Assembly (NCBI RefSeq): GCF_002849225.1
Contig: NZ_PKMC01000002.1
Span: 186,001-250,000 of the forward strand
From: Actinomyces sp. UMB0138
Lineage (GTDB): Bacteria > Bacillota > Negativicutes > Veillonellales > Veillonellaceae
DNA: 64,000 bases
Direction of reading: 5' to 3'
The position numbers were made by a program, and so were the translations under genes. The notes below the pieces were generated by a model. That model was not told where the DNA came from. It searched no databases and saw only the letters and a list, made by a program, of their open reading frames with translations. Of the stretch, positions 15,173 through 63,943 are shown piece by piece (the stretch's first letter is position 1; each line of letters opens with the position of its first letter).

Positions 15173-15225
15173 TGATTTATTAAGGGTAATCTCGTATCTA
15201 CGTGTCTCAACTGAACGGAGAAGTA

Positions 15226-47000: not shown

Positions 47001-47014
47001 AGTAAAGGAAAAAC

Positions 47015-47314
47015 ATGAGCTTTTTAGGAATAAAATTCTCCACCAAAGAAAACAAGAAGACTCCCGCCCCGGTTCTTACGGGTTCGGAAAAGAGCTACCG
47101 CCTAGACGCTGTGGGCCAGGTGTGTCCTTTCCCGCTAGCAGAGGCTAAGAAGGCCATCGCCCAGATCAACAGCGGCGATACCCTGCAAATAGATTTCGAT
47201 TGCACGCAGGCGACGGATTCAATTCCCGCATGGGCTGCAGCGCAGGGCCACGAGGTGCTGGACTTCAAGCAGCTCGGAGAGGCTATTTGGACTATCACCT
47301 TGCGCAAAGCGTAG
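47015..47314 (+). CDS. tsuB: TusA/YeeD-family sulfur-carrier protein (TsuB-like)
   Basis: 99 residues. The active Cys is C37 in the CPFP motif of GQVCPFPLAEAKKAI, the TusA hallmark, after a 28-residue variable N-terminus. Partner of the YedE-like transporter, taking the sulfur from imported thiosulfate on the inside. Ends at a terminator. Confidence 0.9.
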   Translation: MSFLGIKFSTKENKKTPAPVLTGSEKSYRLDAVGQVCPFPLAEAKKAIAQINSGDTLQIDFDCTQATDSIPAWAAAQGHEVLDFKQLGEAIWTITLRKA

Positions 47315-49049: not shown

Positions 49050-49051
49050 CC

Positions 49052-50425
49052 TTAGTTGTCTTCATTGACGGGGTGACGGTGCTGCCCCCAGAATCCTTCA
49101 GGGCTGAACAGGTGCTCGATAACCGAATCCAGGGCACCCAGATCCACCAGCACGTCAAACACGGTGTAACGAGGACGGATCATCTGCGCCTGAATATGGG
49201 TCTTCCGGAAGCGATCCCAGTCGATCTTGATCTGCTCGGGGTGGTAGGGAGCGCCCGCTGCCTTCAGATCTTCAATTGCCTGTTCAGGCGAAATAATCTG
49301 CTTCGAGCAGGACTCACGAATATCTGCCCAGTTGTCCTTTAGCGTCTGCAAGCGCTCGCGGAGGGCGTCGCCCTCTAGGTACTTGCTAAGGGTGTGCTTT
49401 ACAGCCACGTCTTCGATCTTGTCGATGATGTATTCGCGGACGCGCGCTTCGACCTCTTCCTTGGGGCGGGTGGCGGCAACAACCTTTTCGATGTCCAGGT
49501 TGTCGATATCCATCGCCAAGAATTCCTGCCACAGGGCCAGCGAGGCAACGGTGCCGATGCCTACCTTCATGCCGTGGGAAAGCGGCGGCTCCCAATCGAG
49601 TCCGTGTCCTTCCATCTCCCAGGTGTGGCTGAACTGGTGGCCTGCGCCGGAGGCGGGACGCGAAGAGGAAAGGGCCTGCATGGCTAGGCCGGACATGATG
49701 TTGCCCTTTGCTAGTCCCGCAATAGCGGCGGGGTTACCCGATCCAAGTTCGGCCGGATTGGCCAGCGCCTGGCGCAGCGGCCCCTGCACTAGGGACCAGG
49801 TGTAGTCGTCAATCGCCTCTACGCCCAGGCGATCGGCAAGGATCCAGTCAGCGCCGGCAGGAATCTTTTCCAGCAGATCGCCGTAGCCGGTAGCGGTAAG
49901 ACGCGCCGGAGCGTTGGCAATAACTTTCAGGTCGGCAATAAGGCCGGCGGGAGCGGGGCATTCGCGGGTGATCTTGAAACCGTCGCGAGTGATGGCAGCC
50001 CCGTATGCGGCGTAGCCGTCCACCGAGGCGGCGGTGCACACGTTCATGTACGGGCGTTTCAGTTCGCCGCTGGCCAGTTTCGAAATGTCGTTCAGAGTGC
50101 CCGAAGCGATGGAGCAGATGACCGTGTCATCTAGACCCTTGAGGTGTTCACGTACCTTAGAAACGTTGTCGTAATCGGCGTAGACAGTGGGTTTGCCGGG
50201 GAAGATCATGCGGTCGATGATCTGCACGCCAGCTTCTTCCAGCGAGGCAACTACTTCTTCGCCGGCAGCACCGAAAGTGTTTTCGTCGGCTACCAGTAGG
50301 GCCTTCTTGTCATTGAAGAGGTCCTTGAACATCTTCCCGGTCTGATCCAGGACGTCCTCGCCAATAACTATGGCCTTGGTGTCCTTGGCGGTAGACAGAG
50401 CTTTTTGAATCAGGTCTTCTGCCAT
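49052..50425 (-). CDS. araM: sn-Glycerol-1-phosphate dehydrogenase (AraM/EgsA family)
   Basis: 457 residues. Iron-containing alcohol dehydrogenase fold: the NAD site SGTLNDISK, then AASVDGYAAYG with D136, and metal-ligand candidates H267 and H284 in GHQFSHTWEMEGH and PLSHGMKVG. AraM makes glycerol-1-phosphate from dihydroxyacetone phosphate and sits in the arabinose operon of Bacillus. It precedes araB by two bases. Glycerol-1-phosphate is the archaeal-type backbone; its use in an actinobacterium is unclear, and a sugar-phosphate or polyol substrate is possible. Confidence 0.82.
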   Translation of the reverse strand: MAEDLIQKALSTAKDTKAIVIGEDVLDQTGKMFKDLFNDKKALLVADENTFGAAGEEVVASLEEAGVQIIDRMIFPGKPTVYADYDNVSKVREHLKGLDDTVICSIASGTLNDISKLASGELKRPYMNVCTAASVDGYAAYGAAITRDGFKITRECPAPAGLIADLKVIANAPARLTATGYGDLLEKIPAGADWILADRLGVEAIDDYTWSLVQGPLRQALANPAELGSGNPAAIAGLAKGNIMSGLAMQALSSSRPASGAGHQFSHTWEMEGHGLDWEPPLSHGMKVGIGTVASLALWQEFLAMDIDNLDIEKVVAATRPKEEVEARVREYIIDKIEDVAVKHTLSKYLEGDALRERLQTLKDNWADIRESCSKQIISPEQAIEDLKAAGAPYHPEQIKIDWDRFRKTHIQAQMIRPRYTVFDVLVDLGALDSVIEHLFSPEGFWGQHRHPVNEDN

Positions 50426-51154: not shown

Positions 51155-51324
51155 CAGTGGCTGACATCATCTTTCGCATGTAGGGACGAAGGGGTAAGAG
51201 CCCAAAAAAATCTCGTGGTTGAATTTCACTCAAGCGGAGGAATATCAGGTCTTAATAACCGAACTGTTGGTTAGGCCCGATGCAAAGTCGCTCACTAGGG
51301 TCAGCTTTAGAGAATAGGAAAAAT

Positions 51325-52674
51325 ATGGCTAAGTCCGTAATAGGAGAGAAGAGTGTGAAGGATCTGTCCCGCCTTCACCGCATCTTTCTTTTAGTGCTCG
51401 TTTCAATGGGCAGCTCAATTATTTACACGCCTGCTTACTTGAAGAACGTCTTCTACGATCCGCTAATCAAGGCGTTGCACGCTTCTAACGCGCAGATCGG
51501 GCAGCTACTGGCGGCTTACGCCCTCACCGCAACTATTTGCTATCTTCCTTCCGGCATCGTGGCCGACAAGGTTCGCGTACGCACCCTGTCCTGGGTCGGT
51601 TTTGTTGGCACCGCAGCCCTCACCTTCGTGTACGCCTTCCTGCCCTCCATCGCAGTGCTGTACATCGTGTTCGTGGGAATGGGCATCACCTCCATCCTGA
51701 TTTGGTGGGGCGTGCGCTTCAAGCTCGTGCGCCTGATCTCGGAAGAAAGCGAATACTCGCGTAACATCGGCATCTCCTACGGACTGTACGGCGCCGCCGG
51801 CCTAGTAGTCGGCCTCGTCATCCTGTGGATCGTCCAATCCCTGTTTGCAGGCAACACTGTCGGTGGGGTGCGCGCAATGCTCATCTTCCTTGGCGTAATC
51901 ATTGGCCTGCTTGGCGTGCTGTCCTACATGTTCATCCCGAAGTTCGAGGGCGAAATTGACCCCACCAAGTCCTCCTTCGACTTCGGCGAAGTACTGGACG
52001 CGCTGAAGAGCCCTGTCGTGTGGCTAGCCGCAGGCTGCATGTTCTTCGTCTACTTCTACTACACCGGTATCAACTACACGACCCCGTACTTCAAGGACGT
52101 CATGGGCGCCTCTCTTGGCGTTGTCTCCTTCGTGTCGATCGTGCGTACCTACGGTGTCACCCTCCTGTCTGGCCCCATCTTCGGCACCATCGCCGAAAAG
52201 GTGGGTTCGCCCTCGAAGGTTATCGTCGGCGGCTCCGTGGTCGCGGTTGCCGGCCTTGTTGCCTTCACCGTTCTGCCCGCAAAGCCGGCGTCGGCATTTG
52301 TTGCTGCGGGCATCATGATCGTCCTCGGTTTCCTGGCAAACGGCGTGTTCGGCGTCGTCTCTTCCCAGCTAACCGAAGGCAAAGTGCCGCTAACCATCTT
52401 CGGTACGGCAACTGGGTTGCTTTCGGTCATCGGCTTCCTACCTGACTCCTTCTCATCCATCTGGTTCGGAGCGATGATCGACGCCCAGGGTAACGATGCT
52501 TACCACGGGATCTTCCTGATCCTGGCTGGTGCGGCCGTTATTGCCGCCCTGTTCGCGGTGGCCTTGCTGGTCTACGTGTCGCGCAACAAGGCGAAGCTAG
52601 AAAACGCACAGCAGGAGGCCGCCGAGGCCGTTGCCGAGAACGTCGAAGAAGGCCGTAAATGCCTAACAAGGTGA
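51325..52674 (+). CDS. MFS transporter, first gene of the carnitine cluster
   Basis: 449 residues from ATG 51325 (ataggaa upstream); an in-frame extension to 51280 lacks a site. Twelve membrane helices; motif-A-like PSGIVADKVRVRTLS after helix 2. The C-terminus is a short charged helix. Overlaps the alpha/beta hydrolase gene by 16 bases. It stands where enterobacterial clusters have the BCCT antiporter CaiT, so it may carry a carnitine-related substrate or product; substrate cannot be read from sequence. Confidence 0.85.
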   Translation: MAKSVIGEKSVKDLSRLHRIFLLVLVSMGSSIIYTPAYLKNVFYDPLIKALHASNAQIGQLLAAYALTATICYLPSGIVADKVRVRTLSWVGFVGTAALTFVYAFLPSIAVLYIVFVGMGITSILIWWGVRFKLVRLISEESEYSRNIGISYGLYGAAGLVVGLVILWIVQSLFAGNTVGGVRAMLIFLGVIIGLLGVLSYMFIPKFEGEIDPTKSSFDFGEVLDALKSPVVWLAAGCMFFVYFYYTGINYTTPYFKDVMGASLGVVSFVSIVRTYGVTLLSGPIFGTIAEKVGSPSKVIVGGSVVAVAGLVAFTVLPAKPASAFVAAGIMIVLGFLANGVFGVVSSQLTEGKVPLTIFGTATGLLSVIGFLPDSFSSIWFGAMIDAQGNDAYHGIFLILAGAAVIAALFAVALLVYVSRNKAKLENAQQEAAEAVAENVEEGRKCLTR

Positions 52675-53627
52675 ACGTTCCCGCCCTCTGGTCTGAACAG
52701 ACGGGCCAGGTAGTGGCGAAGCAGAAAGAACTGGCTTCCGGTGCCTTTGACACCAACCAGTCTCTATCTGACCTGCGCAGCGCATACGAAACGGAGCGGG
52801 CATTCTGGAACGAAGGCGGCCCCGAAATGGCCAGCCAGCGCCAGTACAGCGTGCCTACTGCGTACGGCGAAGTTCCGGTTACTGTCTTCTACCCTGCCGA
52901 GGGCGTGCTGCCGATCATCGTGTTCGCGCACGGCGGCGGTTTCACGGTCGGTTCGGTGAACACGCACAACCGAATTGCTCGCACTCTGGCAAGCCTGACC
53001 GGCGCGGCCGTAGTCTCGGTTGACTACACGCTGTCCCCGGAGGCGCACTACCCGCAGCCTGTCGAGGAAATTGTGGCTGTGGTGCAGGATCTGCGTGCCC
53101 GTGGGGCCGAATTGGATTTGGATCCGTCCTCGATCTCTTTCGCAGGGGATTCGGGCGGGGCCAACCTGGTTGCCGGCACGTACCTGCATTTGCGCGAGGT
53201 CGAAAAGGACGTTTCGGGTCTAGGCGTGAATCTGTTCTTCTACGGCTACTTCGGGCTTGACGATTCCATTTCCGCCCGCCTGCTGGGTGGCGAATGGGAC
53301 GGTCTTACCGAGGCTGACATCGACTACTACTGGGGCCAGTACCTGGGCGAGGAACCGGCTGAAGATCAGCGATTCTTCAAGATCGTCAACAACGAACTGG
53401 CCGACGGCTTCCTGCCTTCTTACATTGCCGCAGCCGATCTGGATCCGCTTCGGGACAACTCTGAACTGTTGTTCAAGATCCTCACCAATGCCGGCATTGC
53501 AGCCGAATTTGACCCGGTTCCCGGTGTCATCCACGGCTTCTTGCATAACTCCCGCCTGCTTGACGCGGCAGGGGAGTGCATGGAGGCCGCAGCAAAGTTT
53601 TACAACAAGCACGCACACAACAACTAG
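52659..53627 (+). CDS. Alpha/beta hydrolase (hormone-sensitive lipase/acetyl esterase type)
   Basis: 322 residues. The oxyanion-hole motif HGGGF (in [12 protein letters not shown]) and the nucleophile GDSGGAN, with a C-terminal His in GVIHGFLHN, define the HSL family. Soluble carboxylesterase. Overlaps the MFS gene by 16 bases and lies 11 bases before caiA, so it belongs to the operon. In this context it might hydrolyse acylcarnitines to free carnitine; that is inference from the neighbourhood. Confidence 0.87.
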
Positions 53628-53638
53628 AAAGAAAGAAC

Positions 53639-54772
53639 ATGGATTTTTCGCTCACTGATGAACAGCAACTCATGGTTGACGGGTTCACCGAACTGATGAA
53701 TTCCCGCAACTGGGAGACCTACTTCCACGAATGCGACGAAAAGCATGAATACCCCGAAGAATGGGTAAAGGCCATCTGTGACCTGGGCTTTGACCGCATC
53801 ATGCTGCCGGAAGAATATGACGGCTTCGGCGCAGACTGGACCACCCTGTGCGCTGCTTACGAAGCTCTAGGTCGCGCCGGTGGCCCGACCTACATCCTGT
53901 ACCAGCTGCCCGGCTGGGACACGGTCCTGCGTGAAGGCACCGAGAAGCAGAAGGAAACCATCCTGTCCTTCGTCGGTTCCGGCAAGCAGATGCTGAACTA
54001 CGCAATGACCGAGCCGTCCGCAGGTTCGTCGTGGGACGACATGCGCACCACCTACACCCGCAAGAACGGCAAGGTGTACCTGAACGGCCACAAGACCTTC
54101 CAGACTTCCGCTATGAAGGTCCCCTACATGGTCGTCATGGCCCGCAACAGCGAAGACATGTCGGTTTACACCGAATGGTTCGTTGACATGTCCAAGGAAG
54201 GCGTCACCCGCGAACCGCTGCAGAAGTTGGGCCTGCGCATGGACTCCTGTGCAGAGGTTTACTTCGACAACGTAGAGCTGGAAGAAGAAGACCTGTTTGG
54301 CACCGAGGGCAACGCCTTCATGCGTGGCGTCAAGGACTTCGATCTGGAGCGTTACCTGGTGGCTCTGACCAACTACGGCCAGGCCTACTGCGCTTTCGAG
54401 GACGCAGCCAAGTACGCGAACCAGCGCATCCAGGGTGGCCAGGCAATTGCCCGTCACCAGCTAATCCAGCAGAAGTTCGCAGACATGAAGGTCGCTCTGA
54501 CCAACATGCGCAACATGCTTTACGAAATTGCTTGGAAGCAGGAAAACGGTCTGCTGGGCCGCGGCGATTGCTCCATGGCTAAGTACTACTGCTCGCACGC
54601 CTCCTTCGAGGTCGTCGACTCGGCTCTGCAGGTGCTGGCAGGCGTCGGCATCACCGGCGAACACCGCGTCCAGCGTTTCTACCGCGACCTGCGCGTAGAC
54701 CGCGTCTCCGGTGGCACCGACGAAATGATGATCCTGACCGCTGGCCGCGCAGCACTGCGCGAGTACCGCTAA
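53639..54772 (+). CDS. caiA: Crotonobetainyl-CoA reductase (CaiA)
   Basis: 377 residues from ATG 53639, close to the 380 of E. coli CaiA. Acyl-CoA dehydrogenase fold. Long stretches match what I remember of Cai[56 protein letters not shown] and the terminal [15 protein letters not shown]. Uses FAD to reduce crotonobetainyl-CoA to gamma-butyrobetainyl-CoA with electrons from FixABCX. Followed by caiB after 10 bases. The match is far beyond general family similarity, so the substrate call is good though unproven. Confidence 0.88.
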
Positions 54773-54782
54773 GGAGCCAGCC

Positions 54783-55994
54783 ATGTTGCCAACTGAAAAA
54801 CCATCATTTGGCCCTCTAGATGACGTCAAAGTCATCTTCTCGGCTGTAGAAATCGCTGCTCCGACCGCCGCCGGCCTGATGGCCGAATGGGGCGCCGACG
54901 TGACCTGGATGGAAAACATCTGGTCGGGCGACTCCATGCGCGACACCAAGTGGGTAAAGGAAATGGAACGCCGCAACATGCGCTCTATCTCCATCCACCC
55001 GTTCAGCGACGAAGGCAAGGAAGCGCTGCTCGGCCTCGTCAAGGACGCGGACATCTTCATCGAATCGTCCAAGGGCCCGGTGTGGGCACGCAAGGGCATC
55101 ACCGATGAGGTGCTGTGGGAGGTCAACCCCGACCTGGTAATCGTGCACGTCTCTGGCTTCGGCCAGGACGGCGATCCGGAACGGGTCAACTCGGCTGCCT
55201 ACGACCTGACCGTTGCCGCCTACGCGGGCATCATCGCCCAGAACGGCACTCAGGAACAGCCGATGAACATTGCCCCCTACTCGGTGGACTACTTCAACTC
55301 GCTAATGGTTGTTTCGTCCTCGCTAGCCGCACTACACAAGGCGCGCGCTACCGGCCAGGGCGAAAGCATCGACCTGGCAATGTACGAAACCATGATGCGC
55401 ATCGGGTCCTACTACCTGATGGACTACATGAACGAGGGCATTGTCTGGCCGCGTCCGGGTAACCGCCACCAGAACCTGTGCGCCATCGGCGAATGGGAAT
55501 GCAAGGACGGCTACATCGGGCTGTGCGTCTACGGCGTACCGCAGAATAAGTACCTGCTCGAAACCATCGGCCTGGGCGAGTTGTGGGGCACTGAGGACTA
55601 CCCAGAGGACACCTCGGCTCTGTGGCTGAACGGGCCTAAGGCCGACCTGATCCAGCAGAAGCTGACCGAATACCTGAAGACGCAGTACAAGAAGGACGTG
55701 GAGCGCGACTTCACCGCCCACAAGATTGCGGCGCAAGTTGTCAACGAGTTCGAAGAGGTTGTCAAGGAAGAGCACATGTACCAGCGTGGCGTCTTCACCG
55801 AATGGGAAAACGAAGATGGCCAGAAGATCAAGGGCATCGGCGTCTTCCCGAAGTTCAAGAACAACCCGGGCAGGCAGTGGCGTCCCATGCCGAAGCTGGG
55901 CGAAGACACTCGTTACCTGCTTGAACGGGCTGGTTTCAGCGAAGAAAAGATCAATGAATTCAAGGAATCTGGCAAGCTCAAGTTTGCCGAGTAA
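54783..55994 (+). CDS. caiB: L-carnitine/crotonobetaine CoA-transferase (CaiB)
   Basis: 403 residues (E. coli CaiB 405). Class III CoA-transferase; the catalytic Asp is D169 in YSVDYFNSL, the same number as in E. coli CaiB. Segments FGPLDDVKVIFSAVEIA, SKGPVWARKGITDEVLW, HVSGFGQ, LAALHKAR, GESIDLAMYE and PKFKNNPGRQWR follow the CaiB pattern. Moves CoA from gamma-butyrobetainyl-CoA to crotonobetaine or carnitine, closing the cycle. caiC follows after 33 bases. Confidence 0.88.
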   Translation: MLPTEKPSFGPLDDVKVIFSAVEIAAPTAAGLMAEWGADVTWMENIWSGDSMRDTKWVKEMERRNMRSISIHPFSDEGKEALLGLVKDADIFIESSKGPVWARKGITDEVLWEVNPDLVIVHVSGFGQDGDPERVNSAAYDLTVAAYAGIIAQNGTQEQPMNIAPYSVDYFNSLMVVSSSLAALHKARATGQGESIDLAMYETMMRIGSYYLMDYMNEGIVWPRPGNRHQNLCAIGEWECKDGYIGLCVYGVPQNKYLLETIGLGELWGTEDYPEDTSALWLNGPKADLIQQKLTEYLKTQYKKDVERDFTAHKIAAQVVNEFEEVVKEEHMYQRGVFTEWENEDGQKIKGIGVFPKFKNNPGRQWRPMPKLGEDTRYLLERAGFSEEKINEFKESGKLKFAE

Positions 55995-56027
55995 GGAGAG
56001 TGCGGGGTCTCCCGCGCAGGTGAAATA

Positions 56028-57563
56028 ATGTTTCAAACTGGCGATGGAACTACGGTGCGTAGCCTTGTGGAATACCAGGCACAAACACATCCGGAGCAGG
56101 TCTTCCTAATTTTTGAGGACTGCGACGCGGACGTGCGGCGGGTATACACCTACGCCCAGTTCCATCGCCTCTCCAACAAGGCGGCCAATCTGTTCCTTGA
56201 AAGGGGGGTCCGCCGGGGGGATCGGGTAGCTGTCCAGCTAACCAACTCCCCCGAATGTCTGGAGGCCCTGGTGGGCCTCGCCAAGATAGGGGCGATCTAC
56301 GTGCCCCTGAATTCCTCCTACACCACCGCAGAGTGCGCCTACATTATGAAGGCGTGCGACGTTTCCCTTCTGCTTACTCAGCCGTCCCTCTACCAGATGC
56401 CGGGCATGGACGAATTGATCGAGGACGTGCTGGTAGTTGACGGTTCGCCCTCGGGATATGAGACCTTGCGGGATGCGCAGTCGGAGGAACTGGCTAGTGA
56501 GCACGAACCGGTAAGTGCGGATGTCGTGGAAATTATGTTCACTTCGGGGACTACCTCCACGCCTAAGGGAGTAATGCTCACTAACGCCAACATGATCTTC
56601 TCGGGTCTGTACGTGAACTGGCAGCTGGCCATGAATCACGAAGACCGCTACATGACTTCCATGTGCGCTTCGCACGTGAATTTCCAACTTTCTGCTCTGC
56701 TGCCAGTGCTGACGGTGGGAGCAACCCTGATTTTGGCATCCCGCTATTCGGCTACGCGTTTTTGGAACCAGGTGCGCCGAAATGATGCGACTTTGGTGCA
56801 GTCGATGGCGATGATGGTGCGCACTATGATGCGCCAACCGGTTGCCGAGGGCGAACGCGATCATCGGGTCCGCCAGGTGCACTATTTCCTCCCTATATCT
56901 AGGAAGGAAAAGGCCGCTTTTGAGGAGCGCTTCGGCGTGACGCTGCTGAACAACTACGGTTCTACCGAATCACTGGTGGGGGTCATAACCGACTACCCGT
57001 ACGGACCGCGCAAGTGGCCTTCGATTGGGCGAGTAGGCCCGGGCTACCAGGTGCGCATTGTCGATGCCGAGGGCGAAGATGTTCCTCCTGGCGAATGCGG
57101 GGAAATTCTGGTGCGGGGCCGGAAGGGTTATTCGCTGATGGCCGGCTACTGGAAGGATCCGGAAGCAACCGCTGCGGCGATTGACCAGGACGGCTGGTAT
57201 CACACGGGTGATTTTGGTTCCTGCGACCAGGATGGGTGGTTCTATTTTGCTGACCGCCACATCGATCTGATCAAGCGCGGTGGCGAAAACATTTCCACTA
57301 CCGAAGTGGAAAACATTCTCGAAGAAATGCCGGGAATTGCAGAAGCGGCAGTAGTGGGAGTGCCCGATCCGGTGCGCGACCAGGCCGTGAAAGCGGTACT
57401 TGTACTGACTCCCGGGTCGAACATTACCGAGGCCGAAATTTCGGCCTATGCGGCGGCCAATCTGGCCTCGTTCAAAGTTCCTTCCGTAATCGAGTTCCGC
57501 AAGGCTTTGCCGCGTGGAGCCTACGGAAAACTCCTGAAGCATCTATTGGTGCCAAGTAACTAA
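56028..57563 (+). CDS. caiC: Carnitine/crotonobetaine--CoA ligase (CaiC-like)
   Basis: 511 residues (E. coli CaiC 517). AMP-forming acyl-CoA synthetase: P-loop MFTSGTTSTPKGVMLT, the NNYGSTES adenine site, HTGDFG and the hinge region DRHIDLIKRGGENIS, ending with the catalytic Lys in PRGAYGKLLK. Primes the CoA cycle by making carnitinyl-, crotonobetainyl- or butyrobetainyl-CoA at the cost of ATP. Position after caiB matches the E. coli order. Confidence 0.85.
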   Translation: MFQTGDGTTVRSLVEYQAQTHPEQVFLIFEDCDADVRRVYTYAQFHRLSNKAANLFLERGVRRGDRVAVQLTNSPECLEALVGLAKIGAIYVPLNSSYTTAECAYIMKACDVSLLLTQPSLYQMPGMDELIEDVLVVDGSPSGYETLRDAQSEELASEHEPVSADVVEIMFTSGTTSTPKGVMLTNANMIFSGLYVNWQLAMNHEDRYMTSMCASHVNFQLSALLPVLTVGATLILASRYSATRFWNQVRRNDATLVQSMAMMVRTMMRQPVAEGERDHRVRQVHYFLPISRKEKAAFEERFGVTLLNNYGSTESLVGVITDYPYGPRKWPSIGRVGPGYQVRIVDAEGEDVPPGECGEILVRGRKGYSLMAGYWKDPEATAAAIDQDGWYHTGDFGSCDQDGWFYFADRHIDLIKRGGENISTTEVENILEEMPGIAEAAVVGVPDPVRDQAVKAVLVLTPGSNITEAEISAYAAANLASFKVPSVIEFRKALPRGAYGKLLKHLLVPSN

Positions 57564-57577
57564 AAGAAAGGAATGCC

Positions 57578-58453
57578 ATGGCTATTAACACTGATATGGT
57601 CGGGCAAACATTTGGTCCCTTCACTCGCGACTACACGTTCCGTGATCTGGAACTGTTCGCCCTTGGGTGCGGTGCGGGTATCGACGGCAAAGACGGCCTC
57701 GAATACATCAACGAAAAGGATCCGCAGAACCCGCAACTGAAGGTGCTGCCCATGTTCGGCGCAATGCTGATCGTAGACAGCGAAGTCACTCGTACGATCG
57801 ACTACGGCTACAACTACGCAGGGTCGCTGCACTGGGGCTTTGACATCAAGTTCCACCAGCCCATCACCAAGATGTCCGATCACCTAGAGACCAAGGTGAA
57901 GCTTGAGGGCCTGTACGACCGTGGCGAAGGCCGCGGGCTGCTAGCACAGCACATTGGCGACACCTACGATTCGGATGGCAACCTGCTGTTCACCAACGAA
58001 TCCTGGGACTGCCTGATTTATGACGGCGGCTGGGGCGGCCCCAAGCCTCCGAAGGATCTGGTGGACATGCCCGATCGCGAACCCGATTACGAAATTAGCG
58101 AGCGCATTCCAGAGAACCAGGCGCTAATCTACCGCCTGTCCGGGGACTACCACCCGCAGCACATCGACTGGGATTACGCCGCCAAGAACGGTGAGCCCCG
58201 TCCGATTCTGCACGCTATTTCTTACGCGGGCGTCGTCATGCGCCACGCCATCAACCAGTTTGTGCCGGGCGAGCCCGAGCGCATTACTCGTTTCAAGACC
58301 CGTATCACCTCTCCGGTCCACCCTGGCACCGTCCTGAAGACCCAGCTGTGGAAGGTGGGCGAGGGCGAGCTGCGCTTCCGCCTAGTTGACGAAGATTTCG
58401 AAAAGACAGGCGCGAAACCGCACCTGAACTGGGGCATCATCGAATACCGGTAA
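57578..58453 (+). CDS. MaoC-like hydratase-2 family enoyl-CoA hydratase, in place of CaiD
   Basis: 291 residues, a double hot-dog hydratase 2. N-terminal half has LFALGCGAGID and KVLPMFGAML; the C-terminal half holds the catalytic pair D190 and H195 in SGDYHPQHID, followed by PRPILHAISYAG. These enzymes hydrate trans-2-enoyl-CoA to (R)-3-hydroxyacyl-CoA. L-carnitine is the (R)-3-hydroxy form, so the enzyme would suit crotonobetainyl-CoA to L-carnitinyl-CoA. No crotonase-fold CaiD is present. Fifteen bases after caiC. Confidence 0.85.
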   Translation: MAINTDMVGQTFGPFTRDYTFRDLELFALGCGAGIDGKDGLEYINEKDPQNPQLKVLPMFGAMLIVDSEVTRTIDYGYNYAGSLHWGFDIKFHQPITKMSDHLETKVKLEGLYDRGEGRGLLAQHIGDTYDSDGNLLFTNESWDCLIYDGGWGGPKPPKDLVDMPDREPDYEISERIPENQALIYRLSGDYHPQHIDWDYAAKNGEPRPILHAISYAGVVMRHAINQFVPGEPERITRFKTRITSPVHPGTVLKTQLWKVGEGELRFRLVDEDFEKTGAKPHLNWGIIEYR

Positions 58454-58488
58454 ATCCAAATTAGTCACGACTAAAGAGGGGGACACGC

Positions 58489-59808
58489 ATGGCGAAAGAG
58501 GCAGTATTACTGGATGATCTGGGAGTTACTCCCTTCTTGCGGCGTGTCACCCTCTTCTCGTCGGGCGGCCCCTTTCTAGAGGGGTACGTCCTCGGCGTCG
58601 TCGGCATCGCTATGGTGAAGATGGTGCCCGACTTGCATCTAACAGACTCGCAGGTCGGGGCGATCGGGACGATCGCCCTGGCCGGTCTGTTTGTCGGGGC
58701 CATCCTTGGCGGGTGGGCGACCGATAAACTGGGGCGTCGCAAAATGTTCGTCATCGACGTACTAGCAATTGCCGCCCTTTCGATTGGGAACTTATTTGTG
58801 CACGATGCGATCCAACTGATCGCCGTACGCTTCCTGATCGGAGTTGCGATCGGAGCGGATTACCCGATAGCCACCTCAATGATTGCCGAGTTCACCCCAC
58901 GGCGGTATCGAGCAATATCGATGGGCTTTATTGCGGCCGTGTGGTACGTGGGCGCAAACGTGTCTTACCTGGTCGGATACCTGGTGCTTGAATGGCGTAA
59001 CGGATGGCGGTGGGCACTGGCGTCCTCGCTAATTCCGTGCATAATCATTTTGGTAGGCCGCTGGTCGATCCCAGAATCGCCCAGGTGGCTGTACTCGAAG
59101 GGGCGCAAAGAGGAAGCCGATCAGATTCTGCACGACATTTTCGACCATTGGGTGGTACTCGAGGAGGAACCCTCCGAGCGCACCCGCTTTGGCGAAATTT
59201 TCAAGGGCGTGTATCTAAAACGCATCCTTTTCGTGGGCTTTATCTGGCTGTGTCAGGCAATCCCAATGTTTGCCATCTACACCTACGGTCCCCAGATCAT
59301 GGGAGCCTTCGGATTCGATTCTGGCAGGGGCATCCTGATTGGCGAATCGATAGTGGGAACCTTCTTCTTGCTGGGTACGATCCCCGCGATGTTCCTTGCT
59401 GAATGGCTGGGCCGGCGCCCCCTAATTATCTATTCGTTTTTGCTGATGACAGCTGCTATGGCCGTGTTGGGTTGGTATAAGGGTGCGCCTATTGCCGTCG
59501 TCATTGCTTGCTTTGGTATCTATGCGATCTGTTCCGGTGGCCCCGGAAACCTGCAATGGCTCTATCCAAACGAACTGTTCCCAACCCAAGTGCGCGCGTC
59601 TGCCATGGGAGTGGCAATGGCTTTCTCTCGAATCGGCACGGTCTTTTCGATCTATTTGCTTCCGGGACTTATCAGTACCCGGGGCATTGAGGCCGTTATG
59701 CTGATGGGCGCCGGCATATCCGCGCTTGGGGCCCTAGTGTCGATACTGTTTGCCCCCGAAACAAAGGGGCTCACTCTGGCGGCAGCCAGCTCCGTCGAGA
59801 GAAGGTAA
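58489..59808 (+). CDS. MFS transporter (metabolite:H+ symporter, sugar-porter-like)
   Basis: 439 residues, twelve helices. Motifs GGWATDKLGRRKMF after helix 2, RFLIGVAIGADYPIA, PESPRWLYSKGR after helix 6 and EWLGRRPLI after helix 8 mark the sugar-porter/metabolite-symporter group. Sequence unlike the first MFS of the operon, so the two are not recent duplicates. It may import or export a carnitine-pathway compound. Overlaps the metallohydrolase by one base (TAATG). Confidence 0.87.
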   Translation: MAKEAVLLDDLGVTPFLRRVTLFSSGGPFLEGYVLGVVGIAMVKMVPDLHLTDSQVGAIGTIALAGLFVGAILGGWATDKLGRRKMFVIDVLAIAALSIGNLFVHDAIQLIAVRFLIGVAIGADYPIATSMIAEFTPRRYRAISMGFIAAVWYVGANVSYLVGYLVLEWRNGWRWALASSLIPCIIILVGRWSIPESPRWLYSKGRKEEADQILHDIFDHWVVLEEEPSERTRFGEIFKGVYLKRILFVGFIWLCQAIPMFAIYTYGPQIMGAFGFDSGRGILIGESIVGTFFLLGTIPAMFLAEWLGRRPLIIYSFLLMTAAMAVLGWYKGAPIAVVIACFGIYAICSGGPGNLQWLYPNELFPTQVRASAMGVAMAFSRIGTVFSIYLLPGLISTRGIEAVMLMGAGISALGALVSILFAPETKGLTLAAASSVERR

Positions 59809-60437
59809 TGATGTACCGCATTGAAAAGCATGTTGTAAGTTCTTACGAAACTAATTGCTATTTCTTAATTAGTGAAAATGAAACGCTAATTATTGATCCG
59901 GGCGATAACGCAAATCTGCTTCTACATAAGTTGCAGGGGAGGAATCCGGTCGGCATTGTGGTTACGCACTGCCACTCAGACCACATCAGCGCAATAAACG
60001 AGCTGGTAGAGGCCTATTCTATACCGGTAATGGTCGGCGAGGACGACGTTGCCGGGGTGGCTGATCCGCACCTGTCAGGATCCGACGACGACGGCACTTT
60101 CTACAAGGTTGATGTTCCATGCACCGGTCTTCGCGAGGGCGAAGTGATCCAGTGGGGCGATGCCACTTTGCAGGTGTTGTCAACGCCGGGGCACACCCCC
60201 GGTTCTATCTGTCTGTTGGATACCGAAAATAGCATCATATTTACTGGTGATACGCTATTTGCGGGCTCTGTAGGAAGAACCGATTTTGTGCGGGGAGACG
60301 CGGCCGCGATGCGGCAGACTTGCAAGCGGCTGGCAGGGCTTAATCCCGCCCTTTCGGTACTGCCGGGGCACGGTCCCGCCACGACCATGGAGGTCGAACA
60401 ACGCTTGAATCCCTTCCTAAGCTCTTTTACCTACTGA
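59808..60437 (+). CDS. Metallo-beta-lactamase-fold hydrolase (glyoxalase II-like)
   Basis: 209 residues. Zinc ligands H54, H56, D58 and H59 in THCHSDH, then GHTPGSICLLD and FTGDTLFAGSVGRTD, then the last His in PGHGPATT. This resembles small glyoxalase II/YcbL-type hydrolases that split thioesters. Starts in the stop of the MFS gene, so it is coupled to the operon. A thioesterase for a CoA or low-molecular-weight thiol ester is possible; substrate unknown. Alternative start is the next codon, ATG 59811. Confidence 0.85.
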   Translation: MMYRIEKHVVSSYETNCYFLISENETLIIDPGDNANLLLHKLQGRNPVGIVVTHCHSDHISAINELVEAYSIPVMVGEDDVAGVADPHLSGSDDDGTFYKVDVPCTGLREGEVIQWGDATLQVLSTPGHTPGSICLLDTENSIIFTGDTLFAGSVGRTDFVRGDAAAMRQTCKRLAGLNPALSVLPGHGPATTMEVEQRLNPFLSSFTY

Positions 60438-60542
60438 AATAAAGCGTCGAATCTTCCTCTAGAAAACCATATTAACGGTGCAAAATTGGCCTCTCACCTG
60501 CAGAAACTATTTCTAATATTTCCACAAAGAAATAAAAAGAAA

Positions 60543-60572
60543 TTGTGATTTTTAGGGAGAAAGTCCTATTAA
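60543..60572 (+). promoter_or_regulatory. Promoter candidate of fixABCX
   Basis: TTGTGA (60543-60548) and TATTAA (60567-60572) with an 18-base spacer, in a 210-base AT-rich gap between the metallohydrolase and fixA. The TGTGA half-site resembles a CRP/FNR-family half-site but no second half is clear. Confidence 0.4.
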
Positions 60573-60647
60573 AAATAGACACTGCTGCGGTTGGATTGTG
60601 GGTAGCAAACAAATGCGTATTCACTATTCCTGGAGGAGGAATATTAG

Positions 60648-61406
60648 ATGACTGTTGCGGTTGCGTATAAATATGCGGCAAACCCCCAGGACGCTAACGT
60701 CCGTTCTGATGGGTCCGTCGATTGGTCTCGCGCCAAGGCTGCCGTCTCCGACTACGATCCCGTAGCCGTTGAGGTCGGTCGCAAGCTGGCAGAAGCCGCC
60801 GGGGCAGAACTGGTTGGCATCTCTGTTGGTGGCAAGAACCTGTCTTCGTCCATGGCAAAGAAGAACGCCATGTCCAAGGGCCTCGATCGTGGCCTAATCC
60901 TTTCCGACGAAGCCACCACTTCGTGGAACAGCGCAAAGATTGCTTCCGCCCTGGCCGAACTGGCCAAGCAGGCAGAGGCTGAAGTTGTTCTGACTGGTGA
61001 CTCCTCCATCGACGAGGGCGTCGGCGTCATGAGTGCATTGGTTGCAGGCTACCTAGGCTGGCCATGCTTCCAGGAAGTCGTCTCGATTACCCCGGCCGAC
61101 GGCGGTTACGAAATCGTCCAGGCTGTTGGCGGCGGCACTCGCACCCTGACCGTGAGCGGCAACGTGGTTGTCTCTGTGGCCACCGACGCAGCTCCCGTGA
61201 AGGTGCCTTCCATGAAGGACATTCTGGCTGCAGGCAAGAAGCCCGTCGAGGTTGTTGCTGCTGACGCAGTTTCTGCAGCACCCGTCGAGGTCGAAGTTAC
61301 CGGCACCGAGAAGCCGGCTGTTAAGGACCGCAAGAACCAGGTCTACACCGGTGAAGAAGCTGTCGCCGAACTTGTTGGAGCACTGCGCTCCGAGGGCGTT
61401 CTGTAA
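60648..61406 (+). CDS. fixA: Electron transfer flavoprotein beta subunit-like protein FixA
   Basis: 252 residues. ETF-beta fold with VAYKYAANPQDANVR at the start and the nucleotide-binding segment VVLTGDSSIDEGVGVMSALVAGYLGW, then AVGGGTRTLTV. Pairs with FixB to carry electrons to CaiA. Strong site ggaggagg ahead of ATG 60648. First of fixA-fixB-fixC-fixX. Confidence 0.93.
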   Translation: MTVAVAYKYAANPQDANVRSDGSVDWSRAKAAVSDYDPVAVEVGRKLAEAAGAELVGISVGGKNLSSSMAKKNAMSKGLDRGLILSDEATTSWNSAKIASALAELAKQAEAEVVLTGDSSIDEGVGVMSALVAGYLGWPCFQEVVSITPADGGYEIVQAVGGGTRTLTVSGNVVVSVATDAAPVKVPSMKDILAAGKKPVEVVAADAVSAAPVEVEVTGTEKPAVKDRKNQVYTGEEAVAELVGALRSEGVL

Positions 61407-61425
61407 GGGAAGGATTTAGTCAAAA

Positions 61426-62292
61426 ATGGCAAACGCATGGGTTATCGCGGCGGAATCTCACGTCGCAAAGCTGATCGAACTCGGTAAGGCTGCCGCCGGC
61501 TCCGTCACCGTCGTCACCGTGGGTGACGTCAAGGTTGCGGGCGCGGACAAGGTCCTGAACGTCGCCCTCGCCGAGGGCGTCCCCGCAGAAGCTGCAGCTC
61601 CCGCAGTGGCAGAAGCAATCACCGCAGAAGCTGGCGACGTTGTGCTCGCTGCTTCCCGCCCGGTCGAAAAGGTGCTGGCTGGCGCCGTTGCTGCCAAGCT
61701 GAACGCTCCGCTGCTCACCTCCCCGCTGGAAATTGGGGCTTGCCAGGCGAAGCTGTCGCGCTTCGGCGGCATCTCGACCGAAACCGTCACCTACTCCGGC
61801 GTGGCCGTGTTCATCGCCGAAGGTGGAGCCGACGCTGCTGGCGATGCCGCAGCTGAAGAGGTCGCCTTCTCCGGCTACGACGCCAAGGTCACCGCAGTGG
61901 CAGAATCTTCGGCAGCTCAGGCAAACCTGGGCGACGCCCGCAAGATCGTCTCCGTCGGCCGTGGCTTCAAGGCAGAAGAAGACCTGCAGCTCGCCCGCGA
62001 TCTGGCAGGCGCGCTCGGAGCAGAAATTGCTTGCTCGCGTCCGGTTGCTGAAGGTTCCGGCTGGCTAAGCCGCGACCGCTACGTTGGCGTGTCCGGCCAG
62101 TCCGTCTCGCCAGACCTGTACCTGGCAGTCGGCATTTCCGGCCAGATCCAGCACACCGCTGGTATGGATAGCTCCAAGCTCGTTGTTGCGATCAACTCCG
62201 ACAAGGACGCTCCTATTTTCGCAAAGGCAGATTACGGAATCGTCGGCGACCTCTACGAAGTGTTGCCGGCCCTAACTGAGGCAGTTCGATAA
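61426..62292 (+). CDS. fixB: Electron transfer flavoprotein alpha subunit-like protein FixB
   Basis: 288 residues. The ETF-alpha FAD domain is in the last 120 residues: VSVGRGFKAEEDL, SRPVAEGSGWLSRDRYVGVSGQSVSPDLYLAVGISGQIQHTAGM and the NSDKDAPIF end. The N-terminal domain is Ala-rich and diverged. Forms the flavoprotein heterodimer with FixA. Confidence 0.94.
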   Translation: MANAWVIAAESHVAKLIELGKAAAGSVTVVTVGDVKVAGADKVLNVALAEGVPAEAAAPAVAEAITAEAGDVVLAASRPVEKVLAGAVAAKLNAPLLTSPLEIGACQAKLSRFGGISTETVTYSGVAVFIAEGGADAAGDAAAEEVAFSGYDAKVTAVAESSAAQANLGDARKIVSVGRGFKAEEDLQLARDLAGALGAEIACSRPVAEGSGWLSRDRYVGVSGQSVSPDLYLAVGISGQIQHTAGMDSSKLVVAINSDKDAPIFAKADYGIVGDLYEVLPALTEAVR

Positions 62293-62296
62293 ATAA

Positions 62297-63595
62297 ATGA
62301 CCGAAGAAGAGTACGACTTTGATGCCATCGTCATCGGTGGCGGAATTTCGGGTGCGGTTTGCGCCTACCTGCTCGCCAGCCAGGAAAAGGAAGTCCTGCT
62401 GATTGAGCGCGGTGTGGAACCGGGTTCGAAGAACCTGTCCGGCGGTGTTTTTTACTGCCGCGTAATGCAGGAAATCTTCCCTAACTTCATTGAAGAAGCC
62501 CCGATTGAACGAAAGATTACGCGTAACTGCATTTCCTTCTTGAACAAGGAATCTTTCGTCAACGTGGACTACTGGGATGGGCGTCTAGCCGAACCTGTGA
62601 ATGCGGTGACCGTCCTACGGGCCAAGTTCGATCCGTGGCTTTCGCAGCAGTGCGAAGAAGCGGGCGTGACCGTGATGCCTGGCATCAAGGTCGACTCTTT
62701 GGTCAAGGAAGATGGACGTTACATTGGCGTCCGCGCTGGTGAGGACGAACTGAAGGCGCGCGTGATTATTGCGGCTGACGGCGTCAACTCCTTCATCAGC
62801 AAGGACGAGGGGCTGCGCGATCGCGAACCTAAAGAGAACCTGGCGGTGGGCGTCAAGTCCGTCATCCAGCTTGGGGAAGATCGCATTCGCGAACGCTTCA
62901 ACCTGAACGAGGACGAGGGTGCCGCCTACGCGATCGTGGGCGATTGCACCGAGGGCGTCGCAGGTGGCGGATTCATGTACACCAACAAGGAATCCGTATC
63001 CATCGGCATCGTGGCGCGTCTCGATGACATCGAGAAGAAGGGCAAGGTCTCTTCCGATCTGCACGACCACTTCCTTTCCCATCCCGCAATCGCGCCGTTC
63101 CTCAAGGATGGGGAACTGCTCGAGTACGGCTGCCACCTGGTAGCTGAAGGCGGAGCCAAGATGCAGCACGACCTGGTCCACCCCGGCCTGATTGTTATCG
63201 GCGACGCCGCTGGATTCACCCTGAACACCGGCTTCACCGTTCGCGGCATGGACCTAGCTGCTGGTAGCGCGCAGGCTGCAGCCCGAGCCGTCCTCGCCGC
63301 CCTAGACAAGAAGGACTATTCGAAGGAAGCGCTGAGCGCATACATCACCGAATACGAATCCATGTTTGTCGGCAAGGATATGAAGACTTACGCAGGCGCT
63401 CCAGAATTTCTGGAAAACGACGAAATGTATGGCGAGGTCGGCGAACTGGTGGCGAATGTCCTGTACGGCGTTTACAACCACGACCTCACCCCGCGCAAGC
63501 ACCTGGTGAAGGCCGCGTGGGATGCGTTCAAGGAATCGCCGCTGAAACTAACCAAGCTAGCCAAGATCGCCGTTCAAGGTATGAGGTCGATGTAA
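62297..63595 (+). CDS. fixC: FAD-dependent oxidoreductase FixC (ETF-quinone oxidoreductase type)
   Basis: 432 residues. Dinucleotide-binding IVIGGGISGAVCAYLLA near residues 11-27, a second FAD contact ADGVNS and VIGDAAGFTLNTGFTVRGMD near 302-321. Passes electrons between the ferredoxin-like FixX, FixAB and possibly quinone. Four bases after fixB; its stop abuts the fixX start. Confidence 0.94.
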   Translation: MTEEEYDFDAIVIGGGISGAVCAYLLASQEKEVLLIERGVEPGSKNLSGGVFYCRVMQEIFPNFIEEAPIERKITRNCISFLNKESFVNVDYWDGRLAEPVNAVTVLRAKFDPWLSQQCEEAGVTVMPGIKVDSLVKEDGRYIGVRAGEDELKARVIIAADGVNSFISKDEGLRDREPKENLAVGVKSVIQLGEDRIRERFNLNEDEGAAYAIVGDCTEGVAGGGFMYTNKESVSIGIVARLDDIEKKGKVSSDLHDHFLSHPAIAPFLKDGELLEYGCHLVAEGGAKMQHDLVHPGLIVIGDAAGFTLNTGFTVRGMDLAAGSAQAAARAVLAALDKKDYSKEALSAYITEYESMFVGKDMKTYAGAPEFLENDEMYGEVGELVANVLYGVYNHDLTPRKHLVKAAWDAFKESPLKLTKLAKIAVQGMRSM

Positions 63596-63892
63596 ATGGA
63601 AGAATACATTGGGGGAACCGTTCCGGACCGCCTGGCCAGGAACGTATACGAAGTAGACGAAGGTAACCCGCACATTGAGGTAAATCAGGAGATTGCGAAG
63701 GCCACGGGCACTGGCAAGCTGCTGGTTCGCATTTGCCCGGCGCACGTGTACTCCGAAGCGGAAAATGGGGACATTGAGGTCGAATACGCGGCCTGCCTCG
63801 AATGTGGCACCTGTCGCGCGGTAGCTGCCCCTGGCGCTTTGACCTGGCATTACCCGCAGTCCTCTATGGGCATCATGTTCCGTGAAGGCTAA
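63596..63892 (+). CDS. fixX: Ferredoxin-like protein FixX
   Basis: 98 residues. Four cysteines C47, C67, C70 and C73 in ICPAHVY and CLECGTC fit one 4Fe-4S cluster, as in E. coli FixX; the end SSMGIMFREG also matches. Directly follows fixC (stop and start adjacent). Completes the FixABCX set. Confidence 0.94.
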   Translation: MEEYIGGTVPDRLARNVYEVDEGNPHIEVNQEIAKATGTGKLLVRICPAHVYSEAENGDIEVEYAACLECGTCRAVAAPGALTWHYPQSSMGIMFREG

Positions 63893-63910: not shown

Positions 63911-63943
63911 CCCGGCTCCTTTAATGGGGCCGGGAAGCTTTTT
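63911..63943 (+). terminator. Terminator after fixX
   Basis: Nine-pair stem (63911-63919 with 63926-63934, one T-G pair) with a 6-base loop, followed by aagcttttta. Confidence 0.85.

Follow-up and report, generated by a model that had tools for sequence, protein, structure and literature searches.

The cluster described here is very probably an actinobacterial-type carnitine-respiration locus. Judged from sequence, it would convert acylcarnitine or carnitine to gamma-butyrobetaine with electrons delivered via FixABCX, and a MaoC-type hydratase would take the part of CaiD. Twelve genes, all on the + strand, occupy positions 51280-63892 in the open reading frame list of the window, the 64,000-nucleotide stretch of DNA that we analysed (Table 1). 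The carrier is a human-associated actinobacterium, Winkia or a close relative. Such a system in an actinobacterium, as described by the sequence-only reading, was already reported in 2020 (PMC7650540) and 2024 (PMC11007987), in the portions of those papers available to us. What is new here is the hydratase step, for which we propose MaoC rather than CaiD.

Table 1 Features of the cai-fix cluster, in window positions.
Feature	Position	Strand	Family, model or motif
mfs1, MFS transporter	51280-52674	+	PF07690
Alpha/beta hydrolase (Aes/HSL-type esterase)	52659-53627	+	PF07859
caiA, crotonobetainyl-CoA reductase	53639-54772	+	NCBIfam NF002885
caiB, L-carnitine CoA-transferase	54783-55994	+	NF002914
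caiC-like carnitine/crotonobetaine-CoA ligase	56028-57563	+	Best model NF005947, below cut-off
maoC, hot-dog-fold hydratase	57578-58453	+	PF01575 + PF22622
yaaU homologue, MFS	58489-59808	+	PF00083
MBL-fold hydrolase, glyoxalase II type	59808-60437	+	PF00753
fixA, electron transfer flavoprotein subunit	60648-61406	+	PF01012
fixB, electron transfer flavoprotein subunit	61426-62292	+	PF00766 + PF01012
fixC, FAD oxidoreductase, ETF:quinone type	62297-63595	+	Similarity to YdiS/FixC
fixX, ferredoxin-like protein	63596-63892	+	42% to E. coli FixX, CLECGTC motif
Terminator-like hairpin 3' of fixX	63911-63934	+	9 pairs, 8 G-C, then T run

Organization of the cluster

From mfs1 through the MBL gene, neighbours are spaced by -16 to +35 bases; 210 bases separate the MBL gene from fixA, and the fixABCX genes lie 0-19 bases apart. 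The gene set and direction given by the sequence-only reading stand; its start for mfs1 (51325) is a later one than that at 51280. The caiA product is 377 aa long from its ATG, and a longer GTG form begins at 53576. Terminator-like sites in the region number 16, not above the 12.9 found in shuffles (sd 3.8), and a sigma-70 scan of the region returned only two promoter-like sites, both on the - strand and fewer than in shuffles. No match to caiD, caiE or caiF was found within the cluster or in its nearest-genome copy, in agreement with that first reading, and the same holds for caiT.

Gene set and order are largely alike across Actinomycetaceae and Eggerthellaceae. We compared 46 Actinomycetales-type loci, including four pairs with identical CaiB and probably a fifth (L023 and L104, whose caiB is split in the same way), and 35 Coriobacteriia loci, among which L020 and L066 have identical CaiB. 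A class-wide search of 394 genomes with the P. freudenreichii CaiB as query gave a match only in the nearest Winkia genome.

CaiA and CaiB group with the E. coli enzymes

CaiA scores 725 bits against NF002885, above the cut-off of 540, and is 61.8% identical to E. coli CaiA. It falls within a 71-row CaiA clade (support 100/100) that includes the E. coli enzyme and leaves YdiO outside, and Glu237 is kept in all 71 rows. CaiB also passes its model (669.8 bits against a cut-off of 413 for NF002914), is 43.7% identical to E. coli CaiB and has that protein (1xk6) as its best match among solved structures (E 3.9e-107). The 75-row clade containing E. coli CaiB has an SH-aLRT value of 98 in a quick tree without bootstrap, and P. 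freudenreichii CaiB (P0059) is placed inside its Actinomycetaceae branch. Both trees exclude identical rows and those with less than 85% coverage, and a long-branch warning applies to both. The sequence-only reading had named such trees as its check; in them, CaiA and CaiB join their E. coli counterparts and stay separate from the paralogues included. On the trees and equivalog scores, we reject the reading of CaiA and CaiB as general acyl-CoA enzymes. Alignment also confirms that CaiB Asp169 has the same residue number as in E. coli; all 75 CaiB-clade rows have D there, but since 14 of 15 paralogue rows carry it as well, Asp169 alone is no marker of CaiB.

CaiC is nearest to carnitine-CoA ligase, below that model's cut-off: its best model is NF005947 (CaiC) at 618.3 bits, against a cut-off of 651, and the next best model reaches 380.5. 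It is 41.0% identical to E. coli CaiC.

Electron supply, transport and accessory proteins

Similarity and gene order bear out the presence of fixABCX after the cai block. FixA has PRK03359 (FixA) as best NCBIfam model, at 118 bits (cut-off 219), and is 33.7% identical to E. coli FixA. FixB is 36.7% identical to E. coli FixB, with an equal bit score to YdiR, and is under the NCBIfam cut-offs. FixC reaches 405 bits against PRK10015 (cut-off 466) and 371 against the FixC model (cut-off 610), and is slightly closer to YdiS (42.5%) than to FixC (41.0%). As FixA, FixB and FixC are all under NCBIfam cut-offs, the fixABC names rest on similarity and order. FixX is 42.0% identical to its E. coli namesake and scores 23.3 bits to PF05187 (cut-off 24). 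The sole PF00378 gene of the nearest genome is MenB, which points also to menaquinone.

All 45 Actinomycetales loci that we compared contain a match to mfs1, and the protein is a probable importer of acylcarnitine or carnitine. The neighbouring hydrolase scores 357.9 bits to an acetyl esterase model (cut-off 389), has acetyl esterase 4krx as its closest solved relative (E 4.5e-69) and carries HGG at 91 and GDSGG at 163. It occupies the same place in the cluster as the P. freudenreichii hydrolase, compared by position rather than sequence, and is probably an acylcarnitine esterase. The second MFS protein is 51.5% identical to E. coli YaaU, a homology overlooked in the sequence-only reading; E. 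coli yaaU sits immediately after fixX. A yaaU homologue is present in 42 of the 46 Actinomycetales-type loci, and its product is possibly a carrier of carnitine and gamma-butyrobetaine. The MBL protein has an HCHSDH motif; of 45 Actinomycetales loci, 36 have a match to it, and across 33 Eggerthellaceae loci there is a single match, a weak one (25.5%). Outside the cluster, the nearest genome has four BCCT genes whose products are 23-30% identical to CaiT.

A MaoC-type hydratase proposed in place of CaiD

The gene immediately 3' of caiC, in 45 of the 46 Actinomycetales-type loci, is maoC, and its product is the most conserved protein of the Actinomycetales loci (median identity to the window protein 88.7%), with the esterase far lower at 49.8%. 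CaiD was searched for in 38 of the 39 CaiB-positive genomes (all except G355) and in eight Eggerthellaceae; among the 38 CaiB-positive Actinomycetaceae genomes, the best match reached only 1.2e-27 at 34% identity. A hidden CaiD elsewhere in the nearest genome is ruled out, its PF00378 gene being MenB only. The Eggerthellaceae crotonase is likewise ruled out as CaiD, since two of these crotonases reach only 179 and 181 on a CaiD model with a cut-off of 500, on which E. coli CaiD scores 563. We propose that MaoC is the crotonobetainyl-CoA hydratase in CaiD's place.

MaoC matches human hydratase 2 (1s9c) at E 1.4e-31, and its predicted structure aligns to the same fold with a TM score of 0.82; the model (mean pLDDT 70, residues 29-83 mostly below 50) was used for fold only. 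The motif reads GDYHPQH, with His192 at the position of the motif Asn. Among 204 aligned rows (the window protein, 120 of 1265 database matches and 83 locus-derived rows), His replaces Asn in 204, so that the G-D-x-N motif is absent, and Gln replaces Leu in 201; Asp190 is conserved in 203 of 204 rows and His195 in all of 203, and part of this conservation reflects how the rows were picked, by similarity to the window protein. A strict motif pattern missed 64 of the 204 rows, and the alignment placed the motif in all. Asn and Leu occupy these positions in the five solved hydratases with alignments shown, of eight matched. The variant also occurs in proteins of Sporomusa, Desulfobaculum, Shewanella and Ferrimonas. 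A literature search for the catalytic residues of hydratase 2 turned up no paper.

Known hot-dog hydratases of the MaoC type make D-series 3-hydroxyacyl-CoA, and natural carnitine and acylcarnitines are of the L form. A role for MaoC at the carnitine step therefore raises a stereochemical puzzle, as all known hot-dog hydratases use one face, opposite to that required for L-carnitine. Our tentative view, to which we give somewhat less than an even chance, is that a distinct MaoC subfamily, which bears G-D-x-H-(P/Q)-Q-H where other hydratases have G-D-x-N-P-L-H, hydrates crotonobetainyl-CoA in carnitine-reducing actinobacteria and perhaps also in the Sporomusa, Desulfobaculum, Shewanella and Ferrimonas species that have it. 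It would then replace CaiD with an enzyme of unrelated fold. For L-carnitine it would need to add water onto the opposite face, with the Asn-to-His exchange part of the change.

Alternative readings

The same facial selectivity, wrong for L-carnitine in known hot-dog enzymes, would fit a locus that reduces crotonobetaine or carnitine while the substrate of MaoC is a different acyl-CoA, perhaps derived from the acyl chain that the esterase sets free; carnitine would then lose water through some enzyme not recognised here, or crotonobetaine would be imported ready-made. In favour of this reading, 21 of 35 Coriobacteriia loci have a crotonase as well as MaoC, MaoC is away from cai in 4 of 33 Eggerthellaceae loci (of those four genomes, two have a full CaiB match elsewhere, one a partial match and one no match at E 1e-60), and median identities to the window proteins there put CaiB (62.2%) above MaoC (59.7%) and CaiA (58.8%). 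We nevertheless consider it unlikely, given the position of maoC in caiD's place, the conservation of MaoC far above that of the esterase in Actinomycetales, and the lack of any CaiD match better than 1.2e-27 in the 38 CaiB-positive Actinomycetaceae genomes. Still less likely is that MaoC serves D-carnitine instead of, or besides, the L form; D-carnitine would then be dehydrated and reduced in Actinomycetaceae, with MaoC and crotonase interconverting both forms in Eggerthellaceae. The D-series product of known hot-dog hydratases and the joint occurrence of both hydratase types in those 21 loci would suit such a role; the L form of natural carnitine and the assignment of CaiB as an L-carnitine CoA-transferase equivalog argue against it. 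MaoC also departs from the solved hydratases at a motif residue, so its facial selectivity cannot be assumed.

That the acyl-CoA dehydrogenase and CoA-transferase act on a non-carnitine substrate seems to us very improbable. In its favour, CaiC falls below its cut-off, and the Eggerthellaceae genomes that we searched have many further acyl-CoA dehydrogenases and class III CoA-transferases; the trees and equivalog scores, and the association with carnitine metabolites described for P. freudenreichii in the available part of one report (PMC11007987), speak against it.

Proposed pathway and its significance

From the gene identities, order, conservation and tree position observed, and with no CaiD found, we infer a pathway in which all substrates, the function of MaoC, the transport steps and the direction taken by the electrons are predictions. 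Mfs1 would import acylcarnitine or carnitine, and the esterase would free carnitine from acylcarnitine. CaiC would convert carnitine or crotonobetaine to its CoA ester, and CaiB would transfer the CoA of gamma-butyrobetainyl-CoA to a further carnitine. MaoC, in CaiD's place, would turn carnitinyl-CoA into crotonobetainyl-CoA, the substrate that CaiA would reduce to gamma-butyrobetainyl-CoA. FixAB would supply the electrons for this reduction and would in turn receive them from FixCX, with the menaquinone pool as their probable source. Exchange of carnitine for gamma-butyrobetaine may fall to the YaaU-like MFS. The system was first called complete; CaiA, CaiB and FixABCX are present, but with no CaiD it would be complete only if MaoC replaces that enzyme.

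Winkia, Schaalia, Actinomyces, Trueperella, Varibaculum and Eggerthella are host-associated genera. If the pathway is correct, these actinobacteria would take carnitine and acylcarnitines from the host and give off gamma-butyrobetaine, from which trimethylamine can be formed. For Winkia, the suggested connection with gut trimethylamine is weak; it matters more for Eggerthella lenta, whose core cluster is the same. Surveys that rely on caiD, on caiT or on the gene layout of enterobacteria could overlook such clusters. The hydratase step poses its own question: can a hot-dog enzyme make an L-series product, or is D-carnitine what these bacteria consume?

Comparison with known systems

Homologues of caiABC and fixABCX in P. 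freudenreichii and P. acnes were reported in 2020 (PMC7650540, in the portion available to us). The P. freudenreichii cluster, tied to metabolites in 2024, consists of MFS, alpha/beta hydrolase, caiABC, (MFS, hydratase) and fixABCX (PMC11007987). It has the same layout as the cluster in the window, the flanking genes being likened by description rather than sequence; its hydratase is described simply as 'enoyl-CoA hydratase', and the available description names no MBL gene. According to the available part of that report, isolates with the MFS and hydrolase genes showed depleted C8 and C10 acylcarnitines and raised carnitine and putative gamma-butyrobetaine, and were without caiD and caiT; the evidence is statistical association and metabolomics (PMC11007987). 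Because the layouts are alike and these isolates deplete acylcarnitines, the cluster in the window probably begins from acylcarnitines, its front serving these beyond free carnitine alone. Reduction of carnitine to gamma-butyrobetaine, as first suggested, is still the best reading, from the trees and by analogy with the P. freudenreichii metabolites, but free carnitine is probably not the sole starting point.

The E. coli caiTABCDE/fixABCX and yaaU genes (L047) share with the cluster relatives of CaiA, CaiB, CaiC and FixABCX, a yaaU homologue, and the arrangement of cai and fix as separate blocks. As the sequence-only reading recognised, the gene order is nonetheless unlike the enterobacterial one: the blocks are divergent in E. 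coli and co-directional in the window, where CaiD, CaiE, CaiF and CaiT are missing and MaoC, the esterase, mfs1 and the MBL gene are added. The Eggerthella lenta type-strain cluster (G543, L070) has mfs1-est-caiA-caiB-caiC-maoC-yaaU in the same order, with a MaoC 62-63% identical to that of the window; it differs in having no MBL match and in an opposed crotonase that adjoins fixABC, and fixX was not seen within the stretch fetched. With 2-enoyl-CoA hydratase 2 (the MFE-2 hydratase; 1s9c, 1pn4, 3khp), the window MaoC shares the double hot-dog fold and the motif Asp and His, and differs in having His and Gln in place of the Asn and Leu of the solved enzymes.

Organisation and identity of the cluster

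The cluster comprises twelve forward-strand genes, from the first MFS gene (mfs1) through fixX. Gaps across the first eight genes, MFS to MBL, run from -16 to +35 bases and those inside fixABCX from 0 to 19 bases, whereas a spacer of 210 bases separates the two blocks, an arrangement pointing to a pair of transcription units like that of E. coli, here with both in one direction. A terminator-like hairpin lies 3′ of fixX, and the frequency of such hairpins in the region is not above that in shuffles. Window CaiB is 99% identical to that of G001, the nearest genome, and 96% identical to that of Winkia neuii DSM 8576, and 92% of the window's sampled words are common to G001. These comparisons assign the window to Winkia or a very close relative. 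The presence of dnaA in the same window, about 35 kb away, places the cluster on the chromosome. G323, of the same genus as G001, gives no CaiB match at E 1e-60; members of the genus therefore do not all carry the cluster.

Coordinates and content of the features discussed
Feature	Location	Strand	Content or position
dnaA	window 15202-16674		about 35 kb from the cluster
Thiosulfate transporter, then TusA	window 45942-47314		transporter TsuA/YeeE-type (below model cut-off)
Ribulokinase and glycerol-1-phosphate-dehydrogenase-like gene	window 47376-50425	-	opposed to the cai cluster
Cluster	window 51280-63892	+	MFS, esterase (est), caiA, caiB, caiC, maoC, second MFS (yaaU), MBL-fold hydrolase (mbl), fixABCX
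Second acyl-CoA dehydrogenase, nearest Winkia genome	G001:C1 2042162-2045236		near a second class III CoA-transferase
Curtobacterium plasmid locus (L057)	NZ_CP126272.1 9658-15639		mfs1, caiB split over two frames, caiC, maoC, mbl
Actinomycetaceae locus (genome G436)	L102 2000-20000		fixABCX divergent from cai block
Actinomyces marseillensis locus	L015 4053-9972		mfs1-est-caiA twice in tandem; incomplete matches for the first caiA copy (ending at residue 339 of 377) and for the second mfs1 copy (starting at residue 330)

With the crotonobetainyl-CoA dehydrogenase model CaiA reaches 725 bits (cut-off 540; next family 432), and CaiB reaches 670 bits against the L-carnitine CoA-transferase model (cut-off 413; next family 144). 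For CaiC the crotonobetaine/carnitine-CoA ligase model is the top match by a wide margin, at 618 bits, under its cut-off of 651. FixA (118 bits, cut-off 219), FixB and FixC are likewise under their cut-offs; FixC is about equally near to YdiS (42.5% identity) and FixC (41.0%) of E. coli. The second MFS protein shares 51.5% identity with YaaU of E. coli, where the yaaU gene lies directly 3′ of fixX. The sequence-only reading had proposed a carnitine-reducing system of caiABC, maoC, two MFS genes, an esterase, an MBL-fold hydrolase and fixABCX; all were found, on one strand. A carnitine-reduction cluster, of a kind already outlined in P. freudenreichii, is well supported.

Phylogeny and distribution

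The trees combined E. coli CaiA, CaiB and YdiO with the cluster proteins of the loci and with paralogues drawn from the same loci and from four genomes; long branches were flagged in both. The CaiA clade (71 of 91 rows, support 100/100) includes E. coli CaiA and excludes YdiO, while the CaiB clade (75 of 90 rows; SH-aLRT 98, quick tree without bootstrap) includes E. coli CaiB. Both window enzymes group with the E. coli carnitine enzymes, apart from the paralogues used; the grouping with non-carnitine enzymes that would have refuted the sequence-only reading was not seen. Glu237 of CaiA, at the position of the catalytic Glu in isovaleryl-CoA dehydrogenase, is present in all 71 CaiA-clade rows and in 7 of 20 outgroup rows, YdiO among them. 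E. coli CaiA groups with the Coriobacteriia rows and a single row from Propionibacteriaceae (100/95); such branching inside actinobacterial CaiA would fit transfer between phyla. P. freudenreichii CaiB is nested in the Actinomycetaceae part of its clade.

CaiB was found in 39 of 200 Actinomycetaceae genomes, and a MaoC relative in 34 of 138 genomes of a family taken to be Eggerthellaceae and in 4 of 296 sampled across the phylum. All 46 Actinomycetales-type loci carry caiB and maoC on the same strand, with maoC directly after caiC in 45; yaaU, fixA and fixX occur in 42, 45 and 42 of them within the stretches fetched. Of the 35 Coriobacteriia loci, 31 have both caiB and maoC; the two genes share a strand in 30 loci, and maoC directly follows caiC in 30. 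The other four have maoC without caiB; elsewhere in these genomes there is a full CaiB match in two, a partial one in one and none in the last. In L102 the fixABCX and cai blocks diverge, as they do in E. coli, while those of the window are co-directional. The Curtobacterium plasmid locus has no caiA or fix match, and its partial cluster hints that MaoC and the ligase may be useful without the reductase.

The hydratase of the cluster

The sole PF00378 gene in G001 is MenB (523 bits, cut-off 378). With E. coli CaiD as query against 38 CaiB-positive Actinomycetaceae genomes, two gave nothing at 1e-5, 34 gave best E values of 2.3e-16 to 1.8e-11, and the last two gave 2.4e-20 and 1.2e-27 (34% identity); we read these matches, of which the one in G001 was tested by model, as MenB or general crotonases. 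MaoC holds the position of caiD, and no hydratase besides it could be recognised in the window cluster. It is also the most conserved cluster protein in Actinomycetales, with a median identity to the window of 88.7% across 45 loci (duplicates included), against 81.2% for CaiA, 71.9% for CaiB and 50.9% for CaiC.

MaoC resembles hydratase 2 in sequence (structure 1s9c, E 1.4e-31) and, as a predicted model, in fold (TM 0.82). All five solved hydratases among the alignments listed have the motif G-D-x-N, whose Asn we take to be a catalytic participant in the Candida hydratase. His replaces this Asn in 204 of 204 MaoC rows, the window included, and two residues further on Gln replaces Leu in 201. 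Relatives at 58-65% identity occur in Sporomusa, Desulfobaculum, Shewanella, Ferrimonas, Endozoicomonas and Enterobacillus.

L-carnitine is R by CIP only because CH2-N outranks CH2-CO; spatially it corresponds to (S)-3-hydroxyacyl compounds. Crotonases such as CaiD yield this (S)-like series and known hot-dog hydratases the opposite one, so MaoC either works with a reversed face, acts on D-carnitine, or is not the carnitine enzyme. We tentatively favour a reversed face, since CaiB is the transferase for L-carnitine and acylcarnitines occur naturally in the L form.

Replacement of CaiD by MaoC is a weaker proposition in Eggerthellaceae, because there MaoC is no better conserved (59.7%) than CaiB (62.2%) or CaiA (58.8%) and a crotonase gene can accompany the cluster. 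Such a gene, opposed to the cai genes, occurs in 21 of 35 Coriobacteriia loci (among L068-L084 and L092-L099, in part), with fix genes next in 13 of the 21 within the stretch fetched. Two Eggerthellaceae crotonases tested as CaiD scored 179 and 181 bits against a cut-off of 500, which by model makes them something other than CaiD; the nearest model for both is EchA19. Coriobacteriia loci with both genes place two hydratases of opposite expected stereochemistry within one locus.

Comparison with published systems

Our literature searches found no paper on MaoC in a crotonobetaine/carnitine hydratase role or on Actinomyces with caiB and carnitine, and for Winkia with carnitine no more than one mention of each in a single paper; they also gave no paper confirming the catalytic part of the Asn in the Candida hydratase. 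Bacteria that form trimethylamine from gamma-butyrobetaine are reported to have no cai operon, and vice versa (PMC8364193), so a second organism would be needed for trimethylamine. PMC7650540 describes homologues of caiABC, and of fixABCX in a cluster, for P. freudenreichii and P. acnes and proposes carnitine as electron acceptor; elsewhere it states that the FixABCX complex of Azotobacter had no homologues. According to PMC11007987, P. freudenreichii isolates in which genes for an MFS protein and an alpha/beta hydrolase adjoin caiABC deplete octanoyl- and decanoylcarnitine, with carnitine and putative gamma-butyrobetaine raised. The cluster described there lacks caiD and caiT, and the MFS and enoyl-CoA hydratase genes between caiABC and fixABCX are suggested as possible gap-fillers; by that description its layout is the same as the window's. 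To this the present analysis adds the occurrence of the cluster throughout parts of Actinomycetaceae and Eggerthellaceae, its connection with yaaU, and an unusual hydratase.
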